Positions 2,441-26,190 of a stretch of 26,965 nucleotides of DNA are shown here, piece after piece. The notes below the pieces were generated by a model that worked only from the letters and a program-made list of their open reading frames with translations, ran no database searches and was not told the DNA's origin. The translations under genes and the position numbers were made by a program. Origin of the DNA: a virus. The stretch covers positions 1 through 26,965 of IMG/VR virus record IMGVR_UViG_3300034418_007914; one strand, 5' to 3'. Every line of letters starts with the position of its first letter. The first letter of the stretch is position 1.

Positions 2441-2450
2441 GGAATACTAG
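2441..2450 (+). promoter_or_regulatory. GGNANNCTAG intergenic motif (GGAATACTAG), putative late promoter
   Basis: Perfect copy of the recurring motif, seven bases after a stop codon and 18 bases before the GTG start of the 449-residue fibre gene. It is identical in all ten bases to the copy at 7921-7930. The promoter role is inferred from recurrence and position; no conserved -35 element is visible. Confidence 0.5.
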
Positions 2451-3820: not shown

Positions 3821-3830
3821 GGAACACTAG
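3821..3830 (+). promoter_or_regulatory. GGNANNCTAG intergenic motif (GGAACACTAG), putative late promoter
   Basis: Perfect copy of the motif two bases after the preceding stop and 32 bases before the scaffold start. It is followed by CGCG and then an AT-rich stretch, as is the copy at 23242. A small GGGA/TCCC inverted repeat lies between the motif and the scaffold start codon. Confidence 0.5.
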
Positions 3831-3862: not shown

Positions 3863-4600
3863 ATGTCCGAAGAAAACACCAAAGTCTCTGAGATGGAGAC
3901 TGGCGGCCAAGATTCTGCGCCTCAAGCGAGTGCTGATGAAAAATCTCAGTACAGCCCTGATGAGGTGGCTAATCTTGTGAAAGCTTTGCGTTCTGAACGC
4001 GAGGCTCGTAAGACCTATGAACGTCAATTTAAAGAGAAGGAACAGCAACTTCTCAAACTAAAAGACGTTGATCTTGACCGGTATCAACAGCTTGAAGCGG
4101 ATGCAGCCCGTGCCGCCGAGATTGAATCCCGTTATGGCGAGACTATCCAGGCTATTGAGGAGAAGTACGGTCGCCAAACTGCGGAAGCGGAGAGCAAGGC
4201 GAAACAGGCAGAGACTCAGATTAACGAATTCAAAAAACGTTATGCACTTGAAAAAGTGTTTATTTCTGCTGGCGGACGACCTGATGCTGCTGACGGCGTA
4301 TCGTTCTTTGATATGTTTGCTGAGCAGATGAGTGCTCGGTTCCGTCAAGAGCCTAACGGTACGATTACCGTAGTGGATCAACAAGGCGATCCGATCCTTG
4401 ATAGCGAGTCCGGTAAGCGCATTTCACCTGAAGATTTTGTCGCTAGCTTTAAAACCCACCCGATTTATGGCACCTTCTTCAAAAGTGTTAAGGGTTCTGG
4501 TGCTGGTTTAAATTATGCTGGAACTGATGCAAATGGCATGCCAGTAGAGGATCTTTCGCAATTATCGCGTGAAGAATTATTCATGCGAGCGTTCGGTTGA
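3863..4600 (+). CDS. Capsid assembly scaffold protein
   Basis: This 245-residue protein is probably the internal scaffold on which the capsid shell assembles. The N terminus is Glu/Ser/Gln-rich and disordered; residues ~40-135 are a long charged coiled coil with many Glu, Lys, Arg, Gln and Ala; the C-terminal third (from GGRPDAADGVSFFDMF on) is more compact and ends EELFMRAFG, a plausible capsid-interacting tail. Scaffolds of HK97-fold phages typically have this acidic coiled-coil composition and lie directly before the major capsid gene, as here. A rho-independent terminator starts within a few bases of the stop, so scaffold and capsid transcripts can be uncoupled and the capsid expressed from its own leader. 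No protease motif is seen, so the scaffold must leave the shell by another route or be cut by a protease outside the window. Confidence 0.8.
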   Translation: MSEENTKVSEMETGGQDSAPQASADEKSQYSPDEVANLVKALRSEREARKTYERQFKEKEQQLLKLKDVDLDRYQQLEADAARAAEIESRYGETIQAIEEKYGRQTAEAESKAKQAETQINEFKKRYALEKVFISAGGRPDAADGVSFFDMFAEQMSARFRQEPNGTITVVDQQGDPILDSESGKRISPEDFVASFKTHPIYGTFFKSVKGSGAGLNYAGTDANGMPVEDLSQLSREELFMRAFG

Positions 4601-4626: not shown

Positions 4627-4778
4627 ATTGGGAAGAATAGAAGTTTCGGAATTATATGTTAGAAAGCACCCGGTTTTGACTGGCCGTGATGGTTAGCAGG
4701 CAGGGTGTTCCGAGTTAGAGCGTGATGCTCTGGACACGTTTCACCTTTCCTTTTGTTAACCACAGGAGTTAATTTCCA
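4627..4778 (+). promoter_or_regulatory. Structured 5' leader of the major capsid gene
   Basis: About 150 non-coding bases separate the terminator from the capsid start, much longer than other gaps in the structural region. At 4705-4737 a hairpin can form: an outer stem GTGTTCC / GGACAC with a bulge, and an inner perfect stem AGAGC / GCTCT. The sequence AGGAG at 4764-4768 is a good Shine-Dalgarno site 10 bases before the ATG. A promoter must lie in this leader or in read-through from upstream; a one-mismatch version of the recurring motif is at 4631-4640. The structure may stabilise the capsid mRNA or set its translation (inference). Confidence 0.45.
4631..4640 (+). promoter_or_regulatory. Variant of the intergenic motif (GGAAGAATAG)
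   Basis: One mismatch (A for C) from GGNANNCTAG, located directly after the terminator T-run and upstream of the major capsid leader. The position fits a promoter that restarts transcription after the terminator. The evidence is weaker than for the perfect copies. Confidence 0.3.
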
Positions 4779-5745: not shown

Positions 5746-5755
5746 GGGAACCTAA
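5746..5755 (+). promoter_or_regulatory. Variant of the intergenic motif (GGGAACCTAA)
   Basis: One mismatch (final A for G) from GGNANNCTAG, eight bases after the terminator T-run and 56 bases before the next gene. An inverted repeat ACGCT / AGCGT (5767-5784) lies between it and the gene. The position is consistent with a promoter for the head accessory gene. Confidence 0.3.
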
Positions 5756-6893: not shown

Positions 6894-7186
6894 TGGCAGC
6901 CAAAGGACGTACTGCCAAGTTTTACGCTTCAAATCCTGAAGCGTATAAAAAGAAACTTGCTTATGATAAAAAACGGAATGCCAAACCTGAACAAAAGAAA
7001 TACAGGGCTGAATTAGCACGTGAACGTCGCGCCCGTGGTGTAATGGGTAAAGGCGGCAAAGATGTAAGTCATACTGCTGATGGTAAATTTAAACTAGAAG
7101 ATCCCAAAAAGAACCGTGCAAGGAATGGTCATGGGAAGAATGGTCGTCTTGCTCCTGGCAAGGGAACTAGAAAGTCCAAAAAGTAG
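6893..7186 (+). CDS. Basic protein, DUF5872-like
   Basis: This 97-residue, very basic protein starts MAAKGRTAKFYASNPEAYKK and contains KDVSHTADGKFKLEDPKKNR, followed by a Gly/Lys-rich end. The pattern (FYxSNPEAxKKKxAYDKK, then an RAEL stretch, then DVSHTxxGK and NRARN) is one I associate with the DUF5872 family found in cyanophages and in large eukaryotic viruses; its function is not known to me. It is the last of three TAATG-coupled basic proteins. A GGNANNCTAG motif overlaps the last base of its stop codon. Confidence 0.75.
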   Translation: MAAKGRTAKFYASNPEAYKKKLAYDKKRNAKPEQKKYRAELARERRARGVMGKGGKDVSHTADGKFKLEDPKKNRARNGHGKNGRLAPGKGTRKSKK

Positions 7187-7195
7187 GCAGACTAG
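7186..7195 (+). promoter_or_regulatory. GGNANNCTAG motif at stop codon (GGCAGACTAG), putative late promoter
   Basis: Perfect motif whose first G is the last base of the preceding TAG stop. It ends 17 bases before the collagen-like fibre gene, matching the usual 17-19 base spacing. A second CCTAG follows directly. Confidence 0.5.
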
Positions 7196-7212: not shown

Positions 7213-7920
7213 ATGGCGGTCAGGATAACCTCTGCAGAATCTATCCGGCGAGCCATTCTTGCTGATGCGCTTCTTCGTGAAATCTTTGAAAAAGTAGAAG
7301 TTAATACTAGTGGTTTAGCGCCAATTGCGTTAGGGCCAAGTATTGGTATTCTTGGCATTCCTACGATTGATGGATTTGAAGCTGAATGGAAGCTAAATAT
7401 TATTGGACTAACGCAGTCCGAAAGCAATCAAGTTGCTGAGGCTTTAGATCGAATTTTTCCTGGCTCATCATTTGGGTTTACTGGTGAAAAAATATCTATC
7501 CGTATTTACTCATTGGTCACAAAGGAAGTACTTGAATCTGTTGAACAACAAAAGAAGATCAAACAAGATGAGGAGCGTGTAAAAAAATTAGAGACTGCTA
7601 TTGATTATGCATCGAAACTGCAATCCGGTGCCGACGGGCAAAGGGGAGAGAAAGGTGAGCGGGGTTTGCAAGGTTTACGTGGTGAACCTGGGGTTCCTGG
7701 GCGTGATGGACGCGATGGTAAGGATTTAGTAGCAACAGAGGTTGATCTTAATGATTTAAAAGATGTTTATGTACCTGATCCAAAAGTTGGACATGTTTTA
7801 ACTTGGGATGGTGCAAATTGGGTCGCTTTATTTGTTCCTCAAAGATATAAATACGCTGGAGGAGGTGGTGGTACAGCCGCTGCAGTTACTGACTTAGATT
7901 GTGGGGATTTTGACCTCTAA
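7213..7920 (+). CDS. Tail fibre with coiled coil and collagen-like repeat
   Basis: In this 235-residue protein, residues ~1-105 form an alpha/beta domain that may attach the fibre to the virion, and residues ~108-137 form a charged helix likely to be a trimeric coiled coil (VEQQKKIKQDEERVKKLE). About ten Gly-X-Y triplets follow (GADGQRGEKGERGLQGLRG and on), a collagen-like triple helix known in phage fibres. After it comes a DLNDLKDVYVPDPKVGHVL...WDGANW segment, a short motif frequent in cyanophage and other phage fibres, and then a Gly-rich end. The architecture strongly implies a trimeric fibre. It is the first gene of the second fibre block and is preceded by a GGNANNCTAG motif 17 bases upstream. 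Confidence 0.82.
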   Translation: MAVRITSAESIRRAILADALLREIFEKVEVNTSGLAPIALGPSIGILGIPTIDGFEAEWKLNIIGLTQSESNQVAEALDRIFPGSSFGFTGEKISIRIYSLVTKEVLESVEQQKKIKQDEERVKKLETAIDYASKLQSGADGQRGEKGERGLQGLRGEPGVPGRDGRDGKDLVATEVDLNDLKDVYVPDPKVGHVLTWDGANWVALFVPQRYKYAGGGGGTAAAVTDLDCGDFDL

Positions 7921-7930
7921 GGAATACTAG
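7921..7930 (+). promoter_or_regulatory. GGNANNCTAG motif (GGAATACTAG), putative late promoter
   Basis: Perfect copy abutting the preceding TAA stop and ending 18 bases before the next start. It shares CTAAGGAATACTAGT with the copy at 2441, so the two sites match beyond the 10-bp core. Confidence 0.5.
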
Positions 7931-7948: not shown

Positions 7949-9274
7949 ATGCCTACCCCTGCTAATCGCGCAAAGATTCAGTTAGTACGGGGTTCGTATA
8001 GCAATATTGCTGCAAGCCTGTCAGACCTACTTGACGGTGAGCTTTGTTACGCTAAAGATGAAAATCGTTTATATATGGTTGAGGGTTCTACCCTCACACA
8101 AATTGAATCAGACCCGGAAAACATTGAATCTTTAATCGCTAGCATTATTGCTGGCGGCACAGGGATTGATGTTACTCATGATGATCCAAGTGATACTGTA
8201 ACAATTGATCTTGCTGATACTGCAGTAACAGCAGGCAGCTATGGGTCGGCCAGTTCAATTCCTACATTTACGGTTGATCAGCAGGGTCGAATTACAGCAG
8301 CTAGCGAGAATACTATCAATACAGATGTTGTATTGATTCAAGTTCATAATCAAACCGCTTCAGACATTGTTAAAGGTAAGCCAGTTTATGTGTCTGGTAC
8401 GCATACTTCAGGAAAACCCACCGTAGCGTTAGCCGATAATGACGGTTCTGGTACATATCCTGCTATTGGTCTTGTTTATGAAACAATTACCAGTGGCACA
8501 GATGGCTATGTAATCATTAGTGGTTTGTTGACTAATATAGCAACAAGCACTTTAGGTAACGCAGGTGATCCAGTCTATATTGATTCAACCCCAGGCGATT
8601 TAACAACAACACGTCCAACAGCAAGCACCGAAAAAGTTCAAAAAGTTGGACTTATTACTCGTAGTCATGCATCAAATGGCACGATTCTGATTATTGGTGC
8701 TGGTCGTACTAACGATATTAACAATGAACTAGTTGCTCTAACGGGTGTTGCTTTAAATGATTCAGACTTAGGTACTTTTACTGGTTCTACAATTACAGAC
8801 AATGTTGATATTAAGTCAGCATTACAGGAGCTTGAAACTGCTGTAGAAACTGAGCAAGTTAGCACGACTGGTAACTTTACTGTTGGCGGTGAATTACGTG
8901 GTCCCGCGACTTTCTATATTGACCCGTCGGCATATGGGGATGACACAGGCACTGTTGTTATCCGTGGTGGATTAACTGTTAATGGTACAACTACAACGAT
9001 TGAATCAACAACTTTAACAGTTGACGACAAAAATATTGAATTAGGAACAGTTGCCAGTCCTACTGATATTACTGCCGACGGCGGTGGTATTACTTTAAAA
9101 GGTTCGACAGATAAAACAATTAATTGGATTGACTCAACTGATTCTTGGACATTTAGCGAACACATTGATCTTGCAGCAACTAAACAGTATTATTTAAATG
9201 GCACAATGGTGTTAGGATATGACGGATCCGACAGAGTGCTTGATAACGTAAATATTGATGGCGGTACCTATTAA
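7949..9274 (+). CDS. Tail fibre protein with Mtd-like N terminus
   Basis: This is a 441-residue fibre protein. Residues ~8-45 (KIQLVRGSYSNIAA, LLDGELCYAKDENRLYMVEG) follow the Mtd-N pattern of virion attachment. A VDQQGRITAASE motif common in fibres lies around residues 107-118. The middle (~125-255) has a beta-rich domain with repeated V..I..G..T units. Residues ~305-400 contain a module (TFYIDPSAYGDDTGTVVIRG, then a TVNGTTTTIESTTLTVDDKN stretch) that I know from structural proteins of T4-like cyanophages. The C terminus (YYLNGTMVLGYDGSDRVLDNV) looks like a tip domain. The mix indicates fibre-module exchange among cyanophages. A GGNANNCTAG motif precedes the gene at 18 bases. Confidence 0.8.
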   Translation: MPTPANRAKIQLVRGSYSNIAASLSDLLDGELCYAKDENRLYMVEGSTLTQIESDPENIESLIASIIAGGTGIDVTHDDPSDTVTIDLADTAVTAGSYGSASSIPTFTVDQQGRITAASENTINTDVVLIQVHNQTASDIVKGKPVYVSGTHTSGKPTVALADNDGSGTYPAIGLVYETITSGTDGYVIISGLLTNIATSTLGNAGDPVYIDSTPGDLTTTRPTASTEKVQKVGLITRSHASNGTILIIGAGRTNDINNELVALTGVALNDSDLGTFTGSTITDNVDIKSALQELETAVETEQVSTTGNFTVGGELRGPATFYIDPSAYGDDTGTVVIRGGLTVNGTTTTIESTTLTVDDKNIELGTVASPTDITADGGGITLKGSTDKTINWIDSTDSWTFSEHIDLAATKQYYLNGTMVLGYDGSDRVLDNVNIDGGTY

Positions 9275-9276
9275 TA

Positions 9277-9286
9277 GGTAATCTAG
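9277..9286 (+). promoter_or_regulatory. GGNANNCTAG motif (GGTAATCTAG), putative late promoter
   Basis: Perfect motif two bases after a stop codon, 52 bases before the next gene. Its 3' half is part of the palindrome ATCTAGAT. The longer distance to the gene is filled by two further perfect palindromes. Confidence 0.5.
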
Positions 9287-9338: not shown

Positions 9339-9986
9339 ATGGCTAATACCATCAAGCTGCGTAGATCAGCCACACAGGGCGCTGTACCCACTACATCACA
9401 GCTAGCTTTAGGTGAGCTGGCGATGAACACTTACGATGGTAAGTTGTTTGTCAAAACTGATCAATCCGGTACTGAAGCAATCGTTGAGATTGGAGCTTCT
9501 GGAGGTGGAACTGGAACTGCTAAGAAATTCGACGATATCAGTTCCTCTTTCAATGGAACTCTGACGACATTTAACATAACGGTTAATTCTACTGCGCATT
9601 ATCCTGTTGATATTAACGCTACAATTATTTCAATTGGTGGCGTAACCCAAGAGCCAACCACTTCATATACAATTAGTGGTAGTACGATTACTTTTACATC
9701 GCCACCCGCAAGTGGTTTAGACTTTTACGGTGTTGACTTAGGTGTACCAGTTGCAATTGGTACGCCAGATGATGGTACTGTTACACCTGTAAAACTAAGC
9801 ACTGGTGGACCAAGTTGGAATACTTATGGTGTGCTGGAAAGCAGTGTATTTCAAAACGATCAAAACCTTACAGCCGATTTAACAGTTGCTGCCAATAAAA
9901 ATGCAGCAGTATTTGGCCCTGTCTACACAATTGCAGGGGGAGTAACTTTAACTGTTTCTTCGGGATCTGTATTTTCTGTTGCATAA
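9339..9986 (+). CDS. Short tail fibre protein with Mtd-like N terminus
   Basis: This is a 215-residue protein. The first ~45 residues (TIKLRRSATQGAVPTTSQLA, then LGELAMNTYDGKLFVK) are a clear Mtd-N-like attachment domain: basic strand, P.....L..GELA.N..DGKLF. Residues ~60-130 form a beta domain, and the C terminus (TADLTVAANKNAAVFGPVYT, then TLTVSSGSVFSV) is a repeated pattern often found at the end of phage fibre and appendage proteins. AAGGGAG eight bases before the ATG is a clear ribosome binding site, stronger than for other fibre genes. It is the third protein in the window with this N-terminal domain, so several fibres may compete for or share the same virion socket. Confidence 0.8.
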   Translation: MANTIKLRRSATQGAVPTTSQLALGELAMNTYDGKLFVKTDQSGTEAIVEIGASGGGTGTAKKFDDISSSFNGTLTTFNITVNSTAHYPVDINATIISIGGVTQEPTTSYTISGSTITFTSPPASGLDFYGVDLGVPVAIGTPDDGTVTPVKLSTGGPSWNTYGVLESSVFQNDQNLTADLTVAANKNAAVFGPVYTIAGGVTLTVSSGSVFSVA

Positions 9987-12809: not shown

Positions 12810-12819
12810 GGCACACTAG
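12810..12819 (+). promoter_or_regulatory. GGNANNCTAG motif (GGCACACTAG), putative late promoter
   Basis: Perfect motif 10 bases after a stop and 19 bases before the holin candidate. If it is a promoter, the holin, zinc-ribbon and hydrolase genes would form a late lysis transcript. Confidence 0.5.
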
Positions 12820-12838: not shown

Positions 12839-13024
12839 ATGGAAGTTCTATTTGTTCTGTGGTCTCAAGCACCACAAATCGTAAGCGCATTATTTGCTGT
12901 TCATGCTGCTGCACTAGCCATTGTTAATTTAACTCCTACGCCTAAGGATGACGAGGTAGTTGCTAAGTTTTATAAGGTGATTGAATTTGCCGCTGGTATT
13001 TTGACCAAAACAGCTAAGCGCTAA
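12839..13024 (+). CDS. Putative holin
   Basis: A 61-residue protein with a hydrophobic first half (LFVLWSQAPQIVSALFAVHA, then ALAIVNLTPTPKDD) and a basic end (ILTKTAKR). The segment LTPTPKDDE followed by a KFYKVIEFAAGIL helix is a pattern I associate with small phage holin-like proteins: a helix, a TPTPKDD turn, a second amphipathic helix and a Lys-rich C terminus. Such proteins sit in the inner membrane and allow the hydrolase to reach the wall. Its place directly before wall hydrolases fits. Its stop overlaps the next start as TAATG. Confidence 0.6.
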   Translation: MEVLFVLWSQAPQIVSALFAVHAAALAIVNLTPTPKDDEVVAKFYKVIEFAAGILTKTAKR

Positions 13025-13183: not shown

Positions 13184-13645
13184 ATGATTACCACCTGTTG
13201 GTCTAGCATTGTATTATTTGCTACATTATCTGGAGCTACTTATCCAAACCTTGTAGCAGCTCAATGGGCCCTGGAAAGTGGTTGGGGTCAACATACCAGT
13301 GGTAGAAACAATTATTTTGGAATGAAAGGCGCAGGTTCAAGTATTACAACTCAAGAATATATAAATGGTAGGTATGTATCAGTATATAGTAGTTTCAAAA
13401 ACTATGATTCTGCTGAAGATTCCGTCAAAGACTTAGTAAACAAATGGCATAAAAATTATAAAGGGTATAGAGGAGTTAATAATGCAAGGTCAAGGGAAGA
13501 GGCTGCGAGGATGCTGGCGGCACAAGGTTATGCTACAAGTCCAACTTATGCAAGATCTTTAATTGGATTGATGAATAGGAATTCTGTGCCAGTGCCATCT
13601 AATTTAAACGATGACAAGACCCGTCAATCTTATCGATGCGGCTAA
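13184..13645 (+). CDS. Endolysin part 1: glucosaminidase-type domain
   Basis: This 153-residue protein has a glucosaminidase-type (PF01832) domain, which cuts the glycan strand of peptidoglycan. Residues 20-50 hold the core motif YPNLVAAQWALESGWG followed by NNYFGMKG; Glu31 in ALESGWG is the expected catalytic acid. Residues ~65-110 (VYSSFKNYDSAEDSVKDLV) match the rest of the fold, and it ends soon after the domain. The first ~16 residues are hydrophobic but align with the first helix of the domain, so I do not call a signal peptide. It overlaps the next hydrolase ORF by 35 bases in another frame. The two may be halves of a formerly single two-domain endolysin or two coupled proteins. Confidence 0.8.
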   Translation: MITTCWSSIVLFATLSGATYPNLVAAQWALESGWGQHTSGRNNYFGMKGAGSSITTQEYINGRYVSVYSSFKNYDSAEDSVKDLVNKWHKNYKGYRGVNNARSREEAARMLAAQGYATSPTYARSLIGLMNRNSVPVPSNLNDDKTRQSYRCG

Positions 13646-14321
13646 GTATTACCAGGGTTTAGCTCATCAGGATTACGCCTGGATGGCTCTAGATGACTGT
13701 TTAACGGAAGCACAACGAGATCTGTTCACAAACCTGTATAGAACTTACCAGAAGGCCCCTAAGACGCAGTCTGACGGCTTTCCATTACAGGTTGAATACT
13801 TTTACCAAAGAGACAGTAAGACTGGTCATGGGGAGAGGTCTTGTCAGTCATCTGCATTGGCGATGGCAATTGAATATATTGACTCAGGTGTTATTTATGA
13901 TGATGATGATTATTTAAATATTGTTTTTAAATATGGCGATACGGTGTCACAAATGGCACAGAAAGCAGCATTAGACAGTCTTGGTGTTAGAAATCAGTTC
14001 AGGATGAATGGGAGGGAATCTGACTTGTTGGATTTATTGACCAATGGATATCCTGTTCCGATTGGCGTATTGCATAAAGGGCATTGTACTGCACCAAGCG
14101 GTGGTGGACATTGGATTACTTTAATTGGATTTGACGAGAAATATTTTATGGTGCATGATCCATTCGGAGAGATGGATTTAATTAATGGTGGATATATTAA
14201 GACTGGACCAACGGATGGGAAGAATGTTCGGTATACCAGGGAACGCCTTATGTCTAGGTGGCTTATTGCCAGCGATTCTGACGGCTGGTTCTGGGATCTA
14301 TCAATGAATCCATTGAAATGA
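13611..14321 (+). CDS. Endolysin part 2: C39-like peptidase
   Basis: This is a 236-residue protein. Residues ~6-45 (NLIDAAKYYQGLAHQDYAW) are a helical motif (KYYxGLxHQxxAW) found at the start of many cyanobacterial and phage hydrolases. Residues ~65-195 match a papain-like C39 peptidase fold: Cys78 in ERSCQSSALAMAIEY, His167 in GGGHWITLIGFD and Asp183 in VHDPFGE form the expected triad. It would cut peptide cross-links of peptidoglycan and so complement the glucosaminidase encoded immediately upstream. Its ATG lies inside the previous gene without a Shine-Dalgarno site, so coupled translation is likely. The C-terminal ~45 residues contain WLIASDSDGWFWD, a possible wall-binding end. The stop overlaps the next start as ATGA. 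Confidence 0.78.
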   Translation: MTRPVNLIDAAKYYQGLAHQDYAWMALDDCLTEAQRDLFTNLYRTYQKAPKTQSDGFPLQVEYFYQRDSKTGHGERSCQSSALAMAIEYIDSGVIYDDDDYLNIVFKYGDTVSQMAQKAALDSLGVRNQFRMNGRESDLLDLLTNGYPVPIGVLHKGHCTAPSGGGHWITLIGFDEKYFMVHDPFGEMDLINGGYIKTGPTDGKNVRYTRERLMSRWLIASDSDGWFWDLSMNPLK

Positions 14322-17579: not shown

Positions 17580-17607
17580 CCTCGTCAATGAATTAACGGT
17601 AACGAGG
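17580..17607 (-). promoter_or_regulatory. Inverted repeat that may mask the initiator ribosome binding site
   Basis: On the minus strand the leader reads CCTCGT, 16 bases, ACGAGG, then ACTC and the ATG. The second arm contains the Shine-Dalgarno (GAGG) of the initiator-like gene, so the hairpin would hide it. The stem is only 6 bp with a 16-base loop, so it is moderate at best. Confidence 0.4.
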
Positions 17608-17733
17608 GTGTCAACAGGTCAGGTGAACTCAGGACAGGGTGGACTCAGTTCAGGGTGTACTCAGGAAACCTTTAGGGTGTACTGAGGAAACCTTTGGGGT
17701 GGACTCAGGCAACCCTTGGGGGGTGACCTGAGG
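17606..17733. repeat. Seven direct iterons, candidate replication origin
   Basis: Seven direct copies of a 13-bp unit with consensus GGGTGNACTCAGG start at 17606, 17621, 17637, 17653, 17675, 17697 and 17721. The first four are spaced 15-16 bp apart, the last three 22-24 bp apart with AACCTTT-type spacers. Copies 1 and 7 are the most diverged. The array lies in the only divergent gap of the window, between an initiator-like/helicase operon and the recombination operon, and is followed by AT-rich DNA. This is the typical plan of an iteron origin. It could also work as an operator array controlling the two divergent operons; both roles may be combined. Confidence 0.75.
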
Positions 17734-17750
17734 AAAGGATACTATATAGA
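17723..17750 (+). promoter_or_regulatory. Candidate rightward early promoter
   Basis: GTGACC at 17723-17728 and TATAGA at 17745-17750, 16 bases apart, resemble a sigma-70 promoter pointing to the rightward recombination operon. The -35 half lies in the last iteron, so an iteron-binding protein would repress it. Matches are partial. Confidence 0.35.
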
Positions 17751-17788: not shown

Positions 17789-18199
17789 ATGGGAATTAAG
17801 GACGAGGGACGGCTAAATAAGAGAGGGGAGACGGCTCAAGAGGCCCGGCGGCGATACAACCGGAAGTACTACAGCAAGAACAAGGAGCGACTCAGAGACG
17901 CCCAGAAGGCCCGTCAGACAGCCCGAAGGCGTACAGAGAGGGAACGGCAGGCAAACATCCGCACAAGGCGCTTAGAGACGCTTGCAAAGGCCAGAGAAGT
18001 TCGAGACTCAAAATTCCAAAAGTGGGACGAGCTTGGCAGGATTGTTGCGAGGATGAATCTCGAAGCTGGTCTCAGTCAGAAAGAGATCTACAGAATCCTT
18101 CAGGGTCTTGCGACAAAGCGTGAAATTGCGGAGTGGGTTGCTCGCGGAAAGAAGACCGCTAAATTAAAAAGACCGAAATCAAATCTTTCTGATGGCTAA
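17789..18199 (+). CDS. Highly basic, probable DNA-binding protein
   Basis: This 136-residue protein has a very basic first half (long helices full of Arg, Lys, Gln, Glu; YNRKYYSKNKERLRDAQKAR) like a coiled coil or nucleic-acid-binding helix. Residues ~80-110 (IVARMNLEAGLSQKEIYRIL) have a helix-turn-helix look. The gene uses many CGG, CGA, AGG and GAG codons and is more GC-rich than its neighbours, perhaps a later acquisition. It is the first gene after the iteron origin. A role as early regulator or origin-binding factor is possible; the family is not recognised. It overlaps the next gene by eight bases. Confidence 0.65.
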   Translation: MGIKDEGRLNKRGETAQEARRRYNRKYYSKNKERLRDAQKARQTARRRTERERQANIRTRRLETLAKAREVRDSKFQKWDELGRIVARMNLEAGLSQKEIYRILQGLATKREIAEWVARGKKTAKLKRPKSNLSDG

Positions 18200-18920
18200 A
18201 CTTCCAAACCTCAAAGGGATTGCAACTAAAGACCTAGTTGAGACAATTGGGTCTGGTCGTTTTCAAGCGAACTACATCAACTGGTCTCGCACGATGCAGT
18301 TGTTCCGCGACCATGGTGGAGAGGACTGGTTTGTTGAAATGGTCTTTACTTCTGAAGGTGAGATGCTTCATCGTCAACCTGTAGGCGGATGTCTCTTGTT
18401 GCGGTTGCGTCACTTGGATGGAACTGCTACACCTGCTGTACCCCAAGCGGTGATGGACAATTACAACAAGTCAATTCCCTATGAAAAAATTAGCTCTCGC
18501 GACATCACAGATACTCACCGACGTGGTAGTTGCTTGGTGTTGGCAATGCAAACTGGACTTGCCCATGAACTCTGGGCAAAAATGCCTCTTGAGAACGGTT
18601 ATCAAGTAGCGGATGAGGCTGAGATTCAGCAGGTAAAGTCCCAAGCCTCCCAGACGACGACTACGTCTGCTTCGGGCACTGCGGAGGATGCCAAGGCGTC
18701 TAAAAAACAGTTCGTCAGCCTCGGTAAGGAAATGGGTCTCGTTGAGCCTGCAATCAAAGATTTGATCAGCAAGATCAATGAAAACTACGATCTCGGAATT
18801 AAGACTCTTAAGTCCAAAGATAGACGATGGGTTTTGAAGACGAACGAGGAGGTATTACAAAAGAACGGAAAGGAGGAGGTCTTAAAAAAGGAAGCGCAAT
18901 TTCAGGCTAGTCAATACTGA
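18192..18920 (+). CDS. Single-strand annealing protein, DUF1071-like
   Basis: This 242-residue protein resembles the DUF1071/Rad52-superfamily annealing proteins used with phage exonucleases. Residues 20-125 carry the core: ANYINWSRTMQLF, then a beta hairpin (WFVEMVFTSEGEMLHRQPVG), then AVMDNYNKSIPYEKISSRDI and HRRGSCLVLAMQTGLAHELW, where the MDN.NK and R..CLV.A....GL patterns are the family's key features. After a Ser/Thr-rich linker (~150-170) comes a helical C-terminal domain. A RecE-like exonuclease, RusA and SSB encoded nearby complete a recombination set. An AAGGAGGAGGT Shine-Dalgarno-like stretch and A AAA AAG heptamer lie near its 3' end. Assignment is by pattern only. Confidence 0.6.
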   Translation: MAKLPNLKGIATKDLVETIGSGRFQANYINWSRTMQLFRDHGGEDWFVEMVFTSEGEMLHRQPVGGCLLLRLRHLDGTATPAVPQAVMDNYNKSIPYEKISSRDITDTHRRGSCLVLAMQTGLAHELWAKMPLENGYQVADEAEIQQVKSQASQTTTTSASGTAEDAKASKKQFVSLGKEMGLVEPAIKDLISKINENYDLGIKTLKSKDRRWVLKTNEEVLQKNGKEEVLKKEAQFQASQY

Positions 18921-19014
18921 CGAAACCTGGGTCTTAGATGAGGCTGCTAAGAGTCTCGCTCTGTTCTTTAACGGTGTAATTGCAGACCCAGACAAAATTA
19001 GAGAAGGGGGTTGA
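18886..19014 (+). other. Coding-like stretch without start codon after the annealing gene
   Basis: In the +1 frame relative to the annealing gene, 42 codons are open and look coding: from about 18901 they read FRLVNTDETWVLDEAAKSLA, then LFFNGVIADPDKIREGG, ending TGA at 19012-19014. No ATG, GTG or TTG is in frame after the stop at 18883-18885. A strong Shine-Dalgarno-like AAGGAGGAGGT (18870-18880) and an A6 run (18884-18889) lie at its beginning. It could be a C-terminal extension of the annealing protein reached by +1 or slippage at the A6 run, a gene broken by a one-base change, or a reading error. The final codons lie inside the terminator stem. Confidence 0.45.
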
Positions 19015-19027
19015 CGCCCCCTTTTTT
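19004..19027 (+). terminator. Rho-independent terminator after annealing gene
   Basis: Stem AAGGGGG / CCCCCTT with a TTGACG loop followed by six T. It separates the first recombination genes from the RpoD-like sigma factor gene that starts about 35 bases on. Confidence 0.88.
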
Positions 19028-19061
19028 AATGATTACTCTTTCCTCAGTGAAAATTATCGCC

Positions 19062-19853
19062 ATGAGCGCTGAGACTGATCCAATTAGTTTTTGGTTGGCT
19101 GCTGCTGGTCGTTATCCGTTGTTGCCACCTAGTCAACATTTGCGTCTAGCAAGGATCATCCAAGACCCAAAAGCTTCTGAAGCCCAACGTAAGCGTGCGA
19201 TTGACAAAGTGGTCACACACAATCTCAAGTTGATTCCAAAGATCGTTAAAGGATTTACTAAAGGGGTCGTTAGCTACTCCTATGGCGATATTCATACCGT
19301 TGACCTTTTGCAGCAAGGTGTCCTTGGTCTTCGCCGTGCGGCAGAGAAGTACGACCCGACGTTGGGTTATTCCTTCAGTACCTACGCAACACCATGGATC
19401 AAGCAATCAGTGTCGAGGTACGCATACGCAAACCTTTCACCAGTGCGTGTCCCTGAAAATACTCTTCGTGAATACTTTGGGGCTATCAAGAATAAAGGCA
19501 GTTACACACTTGCCGAAGGTACAGCTACTACAAAAGAGCGTGTCGAGGCTTGTCATCTAGCTTTGTACTGCAACAGTCTTGATATTGCAGTCAATGATGA
19601 TGGCGAGAAGGTTAATCGTCATGAGGCAATTGCCTCCAAGGTTTACAGGACTCCGCATTCCTCAATTTCGTTTGAAGAAATCATTGCTGGAGCAGAGATC
19701 ACTGATGAACAAAAGCAGCTTCTGTGGATGCGTTACATGGAAGGCTCTAGTCATCATCAGATCTGTAAGGAGACTGGTCGCTCCAATCAATTTGTGCGGA
19801 TGCACCTAAAAAAAGCGCTTGAAGCAATTACCAACAAGCAGCAGATACAATGA
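19062..19853 (+). CDS. RpoD-like sigma factor (regions 1.2, 2 and 4)
   Basis: This 263-residue protein starts at ATG 19062, chosen because it begins just before the conserved part; an upstream in-frame ATG would lie inside the terminator. Region 1.2 is at residues 5-35 (DPISFWLAAAGRYPLLPP). Region 2 is at 46-130: NLKLIPKIVKGF, then DLLQQGVLGLRRAAEKYDPT and YSFSTYATPWIKQSVSR, the -10-binding core. Region 4 is at 211-255: ITDEQKQLLWMRYMEG, then SSHHQICKETGRSNQFVRM, a helix-turn-helix for the -35 element. Region 3 appears short. This is the plan of group 1/2 sigma factors. It probably redirects host RNA polymerase. It ends overlapping an ATG (ATGA) of the SSB gene. Confidence 0.85.
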   Translation: MSAETDPISFWLAAAGRYPLLPPSQHLRLARIIQDPKASEAQRKRAIDKVVTHNLKLIPKIVKGFTKGVVSYSYGDIHTVDLLQQGVLGLRRAAEKYDPTLGYSFSTYATPWIKQSVSRYAYANLSPVRVPENTLREYFGAIKNKGSYTLAEGTATTKERVEACHLALYCNSLDIAVNDDGEKVNRHEAIASKVYRTPHSSISFEEIIAGAEITDEQKQLLWMRYMEGSSHHQICKETGRSNQFVRMHLKKALEAITNKQQIQ

Positions 19854-21728: not shown

Positions 21729-22610
21729 ATGAAATCCTCTGACGCTGAGGTTGTTTACTTTCAGGCAGATACTCCTTACCGTAAGGCAGAAGGGGAAAGT
21801 CAGTCTCATTTGAAGACGATTCTTAAAAGCCCTGCTCATTATGTGAGTGCAGGCAAGCACAGGCTAATTCCTTCCCCGGCAATGATCATGGGGACCGCTG
21901 TGCATTGCTTAACCCTTGAAGGTCAAGAGACATTTGACGCGCAATTCACTCAACGACCTGAAGGGATTAAATTCACTACCAAGGAAGGTAAAGAGTGGCG
22001 TGCTGCTAACAGCAAGAAGACGATCCTTACGAACGAAGGTCGCGATAGGCAGTGGGATTCCGTTATTGGAATGTCTAACGCACTAAAAGGGTTGGAATGG
22101 TTTAATCCAGATCAGCCTGATTATCGTAAATACAACGAGGTATCAATCTACTGGCGAGAAGATGGTGTCGCCTGTAAAGCAAGGCTCGACCGTGTCATCC
22201 CAATGGAAGATGAAGTCTTGGTTCTTGACCTTAAGACAACAGATAACATCTCGCCGGCAAAGTTCCAATCAAAACTTGTTGATCTTGGATATGACTTCCA
22301 AGCTGCATGGTATTCACATGCTGCAGAGCTAATTTATGGCAAACCTGCTCGGTTTGTTTTTGTTGCAATTGAACGCACTGACCCGTTCACAATGGACTTC
22401 TATGAGGTTCCAAGGTTCATGCTTGAAAACGCTCGTTACCGCAATGAGAAGGCTTTGCGGATTCTCAAAGAGTGTCGCGAAAAAGACGAGTGGCCTACTA
22501 GACAGCCTAGTCTTAAGCTTCTAGATTACCCTAAGTGGTATAAGCCCACGCCTCAAGATGATCAGCCTGCCGTCACCAAAACCAATGATGAATTCGTCCC
22601 ACTCTTCTAG
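21729..22610 (+). CDS. RecE-like exonuclease (PD-(D/E)XK)
   Basis: This 293-residue protein resembles the RecE/exonuclease VIII family (PF12684 type). The N-terminal motif SQSHLKTILKSPAHY, then AMIMGTAVHCLTLE, and the core CKARLDRVIP...VLVLDLKTT (Asp at ~155, Asp and Lys at ~170-172) form the PD-(D/E)XK active site; YDFQAAWYSHAAEL is the typical final motif (QxxxY). It digests double-stranded ends so that the annealing protein can pair single strands. Its C-terminal tail overlaps the thyX start by about 26 bases. Confidence 0.82.
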   Translation: MKSSDAEVVYFQADTPYRKAEGESQSHLKTILKSPAHYVSAGKHRLIPSPAMIMGTAVHCLTLEGQETFDAQFTQRPEGIKFTTKEGKEWRAANSKKTILTNEGRDRQWDSVIGMSNALKGLEWFNPDQPDYRKYNEVSIYWREDGVACKARLDRVIPMEDEVLVLDLKTTDNISPAKFQSKLVDLGYDFQAAWYSHAAELIYGKPARFVFVAIERTDPFTMDFYEVPRFMLENARYRNEKALRILKECREKDEWPTRQPSLKLLDYPKWYKPTPQDDQPAVTKTNDEFVPLF

Positions 22611-23241: not shown

Positions 23242-23251
23242 GGTAACCTAG
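23242..23251 (+). promoter_or_regulatory. GGNANNCTAG motif (GGTAACCTAG), putative late promoter
   Basis: Perfect motif three bases after the thyX stop and 19 bases before the GTG of the small terminase gene. It marks the switch from early to packaging genes. It shares CTAGCGCG and an AT-rich tail with the copy at 3821. Confidence 0.5.
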
Positions 23252-23270: not shown

Positions 23271-23855
23271 GTGGCCATCCATCAGTACGATTTTAGACGT
23301 GGTTATGAAGTTAAGCCACGTTATGGAAAACATGAGTCTGCTGATCAGTATTCTGCGTTCCAACATTTCTTACATATGGGTGGCCAGCGTGATTATGAAT
23401 CCGTTGCAAAATTTGCAAAAGTAGATCGTCAAACAATCAAAAACTGGGCAAAGAAATATAACTGGGAAAAACGTGCTGCACAATGGGATAAAGAACAGGT
23501 TGCATTGACCTGGAAGGATGCAGAAAAACTTCGGGAACAAAAACACAAACGATCCATCGTTGAATTCCGTGATGCATCTGAAAGGCAGGCGCGGATGATG
23601 ATGGAAATTTCGGAAGACTTGCTCGGTGTTTTAACAAAGAGAGTTAAAGACGCTCAAGACAGTGGAGAGGAAGTTCCTTTGCCGCTAGTATCTGGTTTAT
23701 TACGTGCTACAGCAAACATCACTGAACAATCGCGTCAAGCGTGGGCATCTGCACTTGGAGTGGAAGATATGCTCCAATTAGTAGAACAGGAACTAGAAAG
23801 AGTTACAGTAGAAGAAGTAGAGGAGGATGAAGATGACATCATCATCGACGAATGA
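23271..23855 (+). CDS. Terminase small subunit
   Basis: This 194-residue protein starts at GTG. Residues ~40-75 contain a helix-turn-helix (YESVAKFAKVDRQTIKNWAK, then KYNWEKRAAQWDKEQ), the DNA-binding pattern of phage small terminases that recognise the packaging site. A long helical middle for oligomerisation follows, then a very acidic tail (VEEVEEDEDDIIIDE). Placement just before the large subunit supports the call. Its last codons overlap the start of the next small gene. Confidence 0.75.
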   Translation: MAIHQYDFRRGYEVKPRYGKHESADQYSAFQHFLHMGGQRDYESVAKFAKVDRQTIKNWAKKYNWEKRAAQWDKEQVALTWKDAEKLREQKHKRSIVEFRDASERQARMMMEISEDLLGVLTKRVKDAQDSGEEVPLPLVSGLLRATANITEQSRQAWASALGVEDMLQLVEQELERVTVEEVEEDEDDIIIDE

Positions 23856-25551: not shown

Positions 25552-26190
25552 ATGGCGAGAAAAGCTAAGAAGTTTAAATTAAGCCCAGAGCAGCAAATTC
25601 TCGCCTCTGAAAATATTAACCTTGCAAGACGTGAGGCTTGGAAGCTACAACGCACAACAGATATTGATTACGACACTCTTGAAGGTGCGGCACTAGAGGG
25701 ATTATGTAAGGCGGCATATCGTTACGATCCTGAATCTGGATTTAAATTCAGCAGTCTTGCAGTCCCAACAATTAGGGGTGAACTGTTGCATTGGATCAGA
25801 GATCGCACTTACGCAATGCGGTTGACGCACAAAATGCGCGAGAAATGGATCAAAGGTCGTAGGTTAATGTATCGCGGATCTAATGATCTTGAAATCGCTA
25901 AGGAGTTAGAAATTGAAATATCTGAATGGCAGGAAATCAAAAGTGTGTGCTCTGGACCACCGCTTGAGATTAATGAGCACGCTAAGCCAACGGAAAGCCT
26001 GGAACCAGAAGAAATCAACTTTGGAGAACACTATAGATTTTATGCAGAATGTGCATGGAACATGTTAAATGCCAAACAAAGGAAGGCGATTGAAGACTAT
26101 TTTTGTAGCAAAACAAACATTTTGCCTGTTGAGGCTATTCAAGACTTCCTGCAATGTCATGTAGAGCACACAACATCTAGAGAATCTTAA
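25552..26190 (+). CDS. SigF/SigB-like sigma factor with shortened region 4
   Basis: This is a 212-residue sigma factor. Region 2 (20-86) has NINLARREAWKLQ, then YDTLEGAALEGLCKAAYRYD, FKFSSLAVPTIRGELLHWIR and DR; the IRGELLHWIRDR form is typical of group 3 sigmas (SigB, SigF, FliA). Region 3 (~88-128) follows: MREKWIKGRR, then NDLEIAKELEIEISEWQ. The last ~50 residues (MLNAKQRKAIEDYFCSK, then VEAIQDFLQCHVEHTTSRES) resemble region 4 but end where a recognition helix should continue. This suggests weak or no -35 reading. It lies next to terminase, the late side. I propose that it reads the GGNANNCTAG motifs; this is inference. Confidence 0.75.
   Translation: MARKAKKFKLSPEQQILASENINLARREAWKLQRTTDIDYDTLEGAALEGLCKAAYRYDPESGFKFSSLAVPTIRGELLHWIRDRTYAMRLTHKMREKWIKGRRLMYRGSNDLEIAKELEIEISEWQEIKSVCSGPPLEINEHAKPTESLEPEEINFGEHYRFYAECAWNMLNAKQRKAIEDYFCSKTNILPVEAIQDFLQCHVEHTTSRES

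Follow-up and report, generated by a model that had tools for sequence, protein, structure and literature searches.

A SigF-type sigma factor without a recognisable region 4 as the probable reader of -10-only late promoters in a cyanosiphovirus lineage

The window considered here, that is, the whole stretch of DNA that was analysed, is a 26,965-base viral fragment and a piece of a cyanosiphovirus like S-CBS2, the S-CRES phages and P-SS2. Its genes include helicase, RpoD-like sigma factor and SSB genes and, further along, terS, terL, a short sigma factor and a primase-like sequence, an order matching that of the Synechococcus phages S-CBS2, S-CRES1 and S-CRES3, with Prochlorococcus phage P-SS2 a less close match. 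Homologues of the short sigma factor, P-SS2 ORF003 and S-CBS2 gp077, are likewise placed after terL and are of identical architecture. A 44-kb sibling contig, encoding a sigma factor identical to that of the window, includes the far end of the window and so extends it. Elsewhere in the window, six imperfect 16-nt direct repeats (GGTGnACTCAGG...) at 17605-17737, separating the next operon from the divergently oriented replication genes, look like the iterons of a replication origin, and two overlapping lysis ORFs at 13184-14321 jointly match a single endolysin family (PHROG 10051), one corresponding to its first half and the other to its second. The two sigma factors, and the parts of the shorter one, are as follows:

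25552..26190, + strand: 212-aa SigF-type group 3 sigma factor; region 4 not recognisable
25585..25821, + strand: sigma region 2 (residues 12-90), serving in core binding and -10 recognition; Pfam Sigma70_r2, AlphaFold2 helices 12-90
25828..25950, + strand: sigma region 3 (residues 93-133), expected extended -10 contact; SigF/FliA/SigB profile match, helices 93-133
25951..26019, + strand: linker (residues 134-156) with CSGPPLE, invariant in a 63-member alignment; low model confidence
26020..26178, + strand: variable three-helix C-terminal domain (residues 157-209), where region 4 would be; recognition helix missing
19011..19853, + strand: RpoD-like sigma factor, second in the window and rival candidate reader; regions 2 and 4 present

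The RpoD-like sigma factor is far more diverged among relatives than is the short SigF.

The reading frame at 25552-26190 is open, and its 212-aa product contains IRGELLHWIRDR. In Pfam, Sigma70_r2 alone was matched (residues 20-85; E 4e-6). The best curated model was PRK07408, 'RNA polymerase sigma factor SigF' (E 6e-23), in which residues 17-132 correspond to positions 32-154 of the 258 in the profile, covering regions 2 and 3; because the match is partial, the score falls under the whole-protein cut-off. The SigF-like, group 3 class given to this protein in the first-pass annotation is thus borne out, and the S-CBS2 and S-CRES records also name the short sigma factor SigF. A genome scan for host relatives gave one match, located on a contig assigned to a proteobacterial MAG.

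Region 4 was not recognisable in any of the 69 distinct relatives of the short sigma factor examined. When 63 relatives were aligned, region 2 was matched in every one (63/63), while a region 4 match was absent from 62, the remaining one scoring below threshold (E 0.16); likewise, a profile built from these 63 sequences matched solved sigma factors up to region 3 and, in nearly all cases, not further. As region 4 is missing family-wide, a frameshift in the window record was ruled out as an explanation for the short C-terminus. An AlphaFold2 model based on the 63 sequences (pLDDT 81.7), which replaced a shallow model (11 sequences; pLDDT 62), comprises region 2, region 3, a loose linker, probably the region 3.2 finger, and a three-helix domain (residues 157-209), with a pTM of 0.42 marking the relative placement of the domains as uncertain. 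The last 61 residues, used on their own as query, matched nothing in the PDB. With Foldseek, the complete model aligned along whole sigma factors, including SigB and sigma-28, such that the three-helix domain sits, at the level of fold, at the position of region 4.1 and the first helix of the HTH. Given this alignment, the predicted domain is best read as a remnant of region 4 without the recognition helix, and the earlier description of a region 4 that stops near that helix appears a fair one for the modelled structure.

The motif GGNANNCTAG occurs nine times in the window, as compared to 2.0 occurrences expected, a count that none of 100 shuffles reached. Seven of the nine copies are intergenic, on the + strand and 27-62 nt ahead of a gene start, preceding structural, scaffolding, tail and small terminase genes and two others; gene function suggests that these are late genes. 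The copies in coding sequence (minus strand, 22521-22530; + strand, 6558) were left out. Since a search of the window allowing one mismatch had no power (50 found versus 53.6 expected), a trained matrix and tests of position were used. The intergenic copies, together with two probable degenerate ones, are:

2441..2450, + strand: late motif GGAATACTAG; gene start 28 nt downstream, at 2469
3821..3830, + strand: late motif GGAACACTAG; scaffolding protein gene starts 42 nt downstream, at 3863
4631..4640, + strand: probable degenerate copy GGAAGAATAG, one mismatch, directly after a terminator-like hairpin and ahead of the major capsid gene (4779)
5746..5755, + strand: probable degenerate copy GGGAACCTAA, one mismatch, after a terminator-like hairpin and upstream of 5812
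7186..7195, + strand: late motif GGCAGACTAG; collagen-like tail protein gene starts 27 nt downstream, at 7213
7921..7930, + strand: late motif GGAATACTAG; virion structural gene starts 28 nt downstream, at 7949
9277..9286, + strand: late motif GGTAATCTAG; tail-fibre gene starts 62 nt downstream, at 9339
12810..12819, + strand: late motif GGCACACTAG; 61-aa ORF starts 29 nt downstream, at 12839
23242..23251, + strand: late motif GGTAACCTAG; small terminase gene starts 29 nt downstream, at 23271

On the coding strand of S-CBS2, S-CRES1, S-CRES3 and P-SS2, GGNANNCTAG is found 14, 13, 14 and 10 times, respectively, and on the opposite strand 1, 3, 1 and 1 times; in the latter three phages, the sites precede terminase, portal, tail and lysozyme genes. 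Considering these four genomes and the window together, 44 of 59 coding-strand copies are followed 24-40 nt downstream by the ATG or GTG of an ORF, something almost never seen with permuted versions of the pattern. Distances between motif and start codon concentrate at 27-33 nt, 28 nt being the commonest. An unseeded expectation-maximisation search recovered the motif in the majority of sigma-carrying genomes, whereas none of four controls yielded it. Alignment of 53 sites gave the consensus tMGGMANMCTAGCCcRRY. No -35 partner was detected in these sites, with all columns from -45 to -14 holding at most 0.13 bits (99.9% of chance columns fall below 0.20), so that the motif indeed stands without visible upstream partner, as had been noted at first pass from the window. 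Moreover, 7 of 54 sites directly follow terminators made of a hairpin and a T-run; at such sites, transcription must restart and there is no room for a separate -35 element.

The first-pass annotation had also raised the question of whether phages with this sigma factor carry the motif. With four genomes as training set, a matrix was built and applied to the stretches upstream of genes, with 100 column permutations for comparison; a low-threshold scan of whole genomes had proved noisy. The matrix was significant, with no permutation as good, in the four training genomes and in all 16 held-out sigma-carrying genomes, the window included (20/20 in total), and this held down to relatives of approximately 47% sigma identity. 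By contrast, significance was reached in 0/10 cyanophages without the short sigma factor, namely KBS-S-2A, S-CBS1, S-CBS3, S-CBS4 (50 kb), Syn5, S-TIM5 (50 kb), S-PM2 (50 kb), Mwe-JY26 (50 kb), Pam1 and Cr-LKS4 (40 kb). Of these motif-less phages, KBS-S-2A, S-CBS1 and S-CBS3 encode RpoD-like sigma factors, S-TIM5 and Cr-LKS4 encode other, distantly related sigma factors, S-PM2 encodes gp55, and Mwe-JY26 has the capsid protein in common. This pattern favours the short sigma factor over the RpoD-like and host sigma factors as reader of the motif, with the co-occurrence in part reflecting shared descent, as the genomes bearing sigma factor and motif form one lineage; common ancestry could by itself give such a pattern even if the two were not directly linked.

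It is conceivable that the RpoD-like sigma factor (19011-19853), or both sigma factors jointly, reads the motif and that the short SigF serves another role. Both are present in S-CBS2, S-CRES1, S-CRES3 and P-SS2, and the RpoD-like protein of the window has both region 2 and region 4. Yet the RpoD-like proteins of S-CBS1 and KBS-S-2A resemble that of the window (34-35%) to about the degree that those of S-CRES1 and P-SS2 do (29-31%), and the former two phages nonetheless lack the motif, as does S-CBS3, despite its RpoD-like sigma factor. Furthermore, TATAAT rather than GGNANNCTAG is the expected target of an RpoD-like region 2, and a sigma factor with region 4 should leave a -35 element, none of which is seen at the motif. 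As such, a role for the RpoD-like protein as reader is considered unlikely, and the short sigma factor would be the one to read the motif.

In structures of sigma region 2, the flipped-out bases of the -10 element are A-11 and T-7, which lie four apart. The invariant A and T of the motif are also four bases apart and have GG in front. If these are placed at -11 and -7, the motif could be read as a -10 element with an extended -10, with the GG at -14/-13 and the last G at -5. The conserved purines at motif offsets 13-14 then correspond to -1/+1 and likely represent the start region. It is against this spacing, and the purines downstream, that the possibility of the motif being an operator or an RNA element near translation starts, and not a promoter, has to be weighed. 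The unusually constant distance between motif and start codon is what an RNA element would give as well; the motif is, however, too far upstream for a Shine-Dalgarno element, and some copies come directly after terminators, where transcription must restart. An operator or RNA element is thus judged to be quite improbable, and a -10 element is the reading retained.

Cyanobacterial SigF, as described in Synechocystis, has GGTAA as its measured -12 element, used along with TAGGC at -32 (PMC2758279), and the motif begins GG-N-A in the same manner, a likeness that was pointed out at first pass and that stands. Over the 53 aligned sites, no TAGGC-like element was found upstream of the motif; the loss of this half of the SigF promoter is as expected for a sigma factor without region 4. 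It could be argued that a host sigma factor, SigF or another, reads the motif, with the phage protein acting as helper or decoy, given the GGTAA read by host SigF and given that the host of P-SS2 possesses a group 3 sigma factor (PMC2784084). Such reading by host SigF is at odds with the missing TAGGC, and the motif is absent from cyanosiphoviruses of related Synechococcus hosts that lack the short sigma factor, making a host reader highly improbable. A split sigma factor like SPO1 gp33/gp34, in which a separate region-4 protein completes the short sigma factor, would account for the missing region 4 and has a parallel in the role of T4 gp33 (PMC2988020), but is given very little chance, since no genome has more than one PF04545 match, which lies in a frame of approximately 270-300 aa as with the RpoD-like sigma factor, and 8 of 19 genomes have none (a strongly diverged copy could be missed), and since there is no -35 element for a region 4 to read; a diverged gp33-like flap binder that does not read DNA may nevertheless take part.

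In many relatives, the C-terminus of the short sigma factor offers a candidate for a contact that would stand in for the missing -35 one. Among the 43 relatives of at least 215 aa, 37 have Q[G/P/A/S]x[L/V]F as their very last residues (QxSLF-like), with Q and F conserved in 37/37 and L in 36/37. Such QxxLF-type ends are thus present in 37 of the 69 relatives overall and in none of the 26 short members, among them the copy in the window, and are rare among other ORFs of these genomes. In S-CBS2, a QGSLF ending is found in another frame just past the annotated stop of gp077 (17832-18452), such that this record, alone in the family, seems to be frameshifted, hiding the conserved end. The bacterial clamp-binding consensus, frequently located at the C-terminus, is QL[S/D]LF or, in its general form, QxxLF (PMC12309361; PMC4549789), while in T4 gp55, a region-2 domain is joined to a C-terminal clamp-binding motif (PMC7892883). 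As neither a beta clamp (PF00712) nor Pol III alpha was matched in the 19 genomes searched, the host clamp would be the partner. The peptide suggests a T4-like coupling of late transcription to replication via the host clamp, with the short sigma factor predicted to contact the clamp directly; the 26 short members, that of the window included, may use another contact or none.

Taken together, it is likely that a sigma factor of the SigF class, having lost the DNA-reading part of region 4, directs late transcription in these phages from promoters comprising a -10 element only. According to this scheme, region 2 of the short sigma factor would bind the host RNA polymerase core and bring it to the late promoters of the phage family, each consisting of the single element tMGGMANMCTAGCCcRRY with no -35 element. 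Region 2 would read A-11 and T-7 and region 3 the GG at -14/-13, with a predicted transcription start some 14 nt past the motif's first G and leaders about 14 nt long. In many relatives, the C-terminal QxSLF probably ties the holoenzyme to the replication-loaded host beta clamp, a tether that would replace the missing -35 contact, as does T4 gp55 with gp45. That the whole amounts to a second, independently evolved late system of the T4 kind, based on a -10-only, SigF-derived sigma factor that is clamp-tethered in a large part of the family and relies on host parts only, phage genome replication thereby turning on the late genes, is a possibility that we raise tentatively.

Part of this was already known. 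The sigma factor is annotated in P-SS2 (ORF003), whose authors considered it a group 3 sigma factor that probably serves a particular regulon (PMC2784084), and in S-CBS2 (gp077), with no description of a motif or promoter found in either case. In the literature searched, covering few subscription journals, no report of the motif, the missing -35 element, the loss of region 4 or the clamp peptide was found. To our knowledge, gene regulation in this cyanosiphovirus group is almost unstudied, and the motif provides a testable promoter map for what is a widespread group.

The coupling of late transcription to replication via the sliding clamp is established in T4 and its relatives. The system proposed here resembles T4 gp55/gp33/gp45 in having a sigma factor without region 4, a single -10-like box with no -35 element, structural genes as targets and, in many relatives but not in the window's own copy, a C-terminal peptide fitting the sliding-clamp-binding motif. 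It differs in its box (GGNANNCTAG rather than TATAAATA of T4), in that no gp33 and, over 19 genomes, no beta-clamp gene (PF00712) was found, leaving the clamp to the host, and in the sigma factor, which is SigF-like, contains region 3 and belongs to PHROG 36098, whereas S-PM2 gp55 belongs to PHROG 234. The short sigma factor is hence of a different class, as first supposed, and, judging from sequence, would work like T4 gp55 from outside the gp55 family. If so, this would be a convergent version built on SigF and the host clamp, with loss of region 4 and gain of a clamp peptide representing a repeatable route. SPO1, where a phage late sigma factor (gp34) is likewise separated from region 4 (gp33), has late promoters with a -35 element, in contrast to those described here. 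Finally, SigF of Synechocystis PCC 6803 is the best profile match over regions 2-3, and its GGTAA starts as does the motif; the host protein, however, possesses region 4 and relies on TAGGC at -32, whereas the phage sigma factor lacks the former and its sites the latter.
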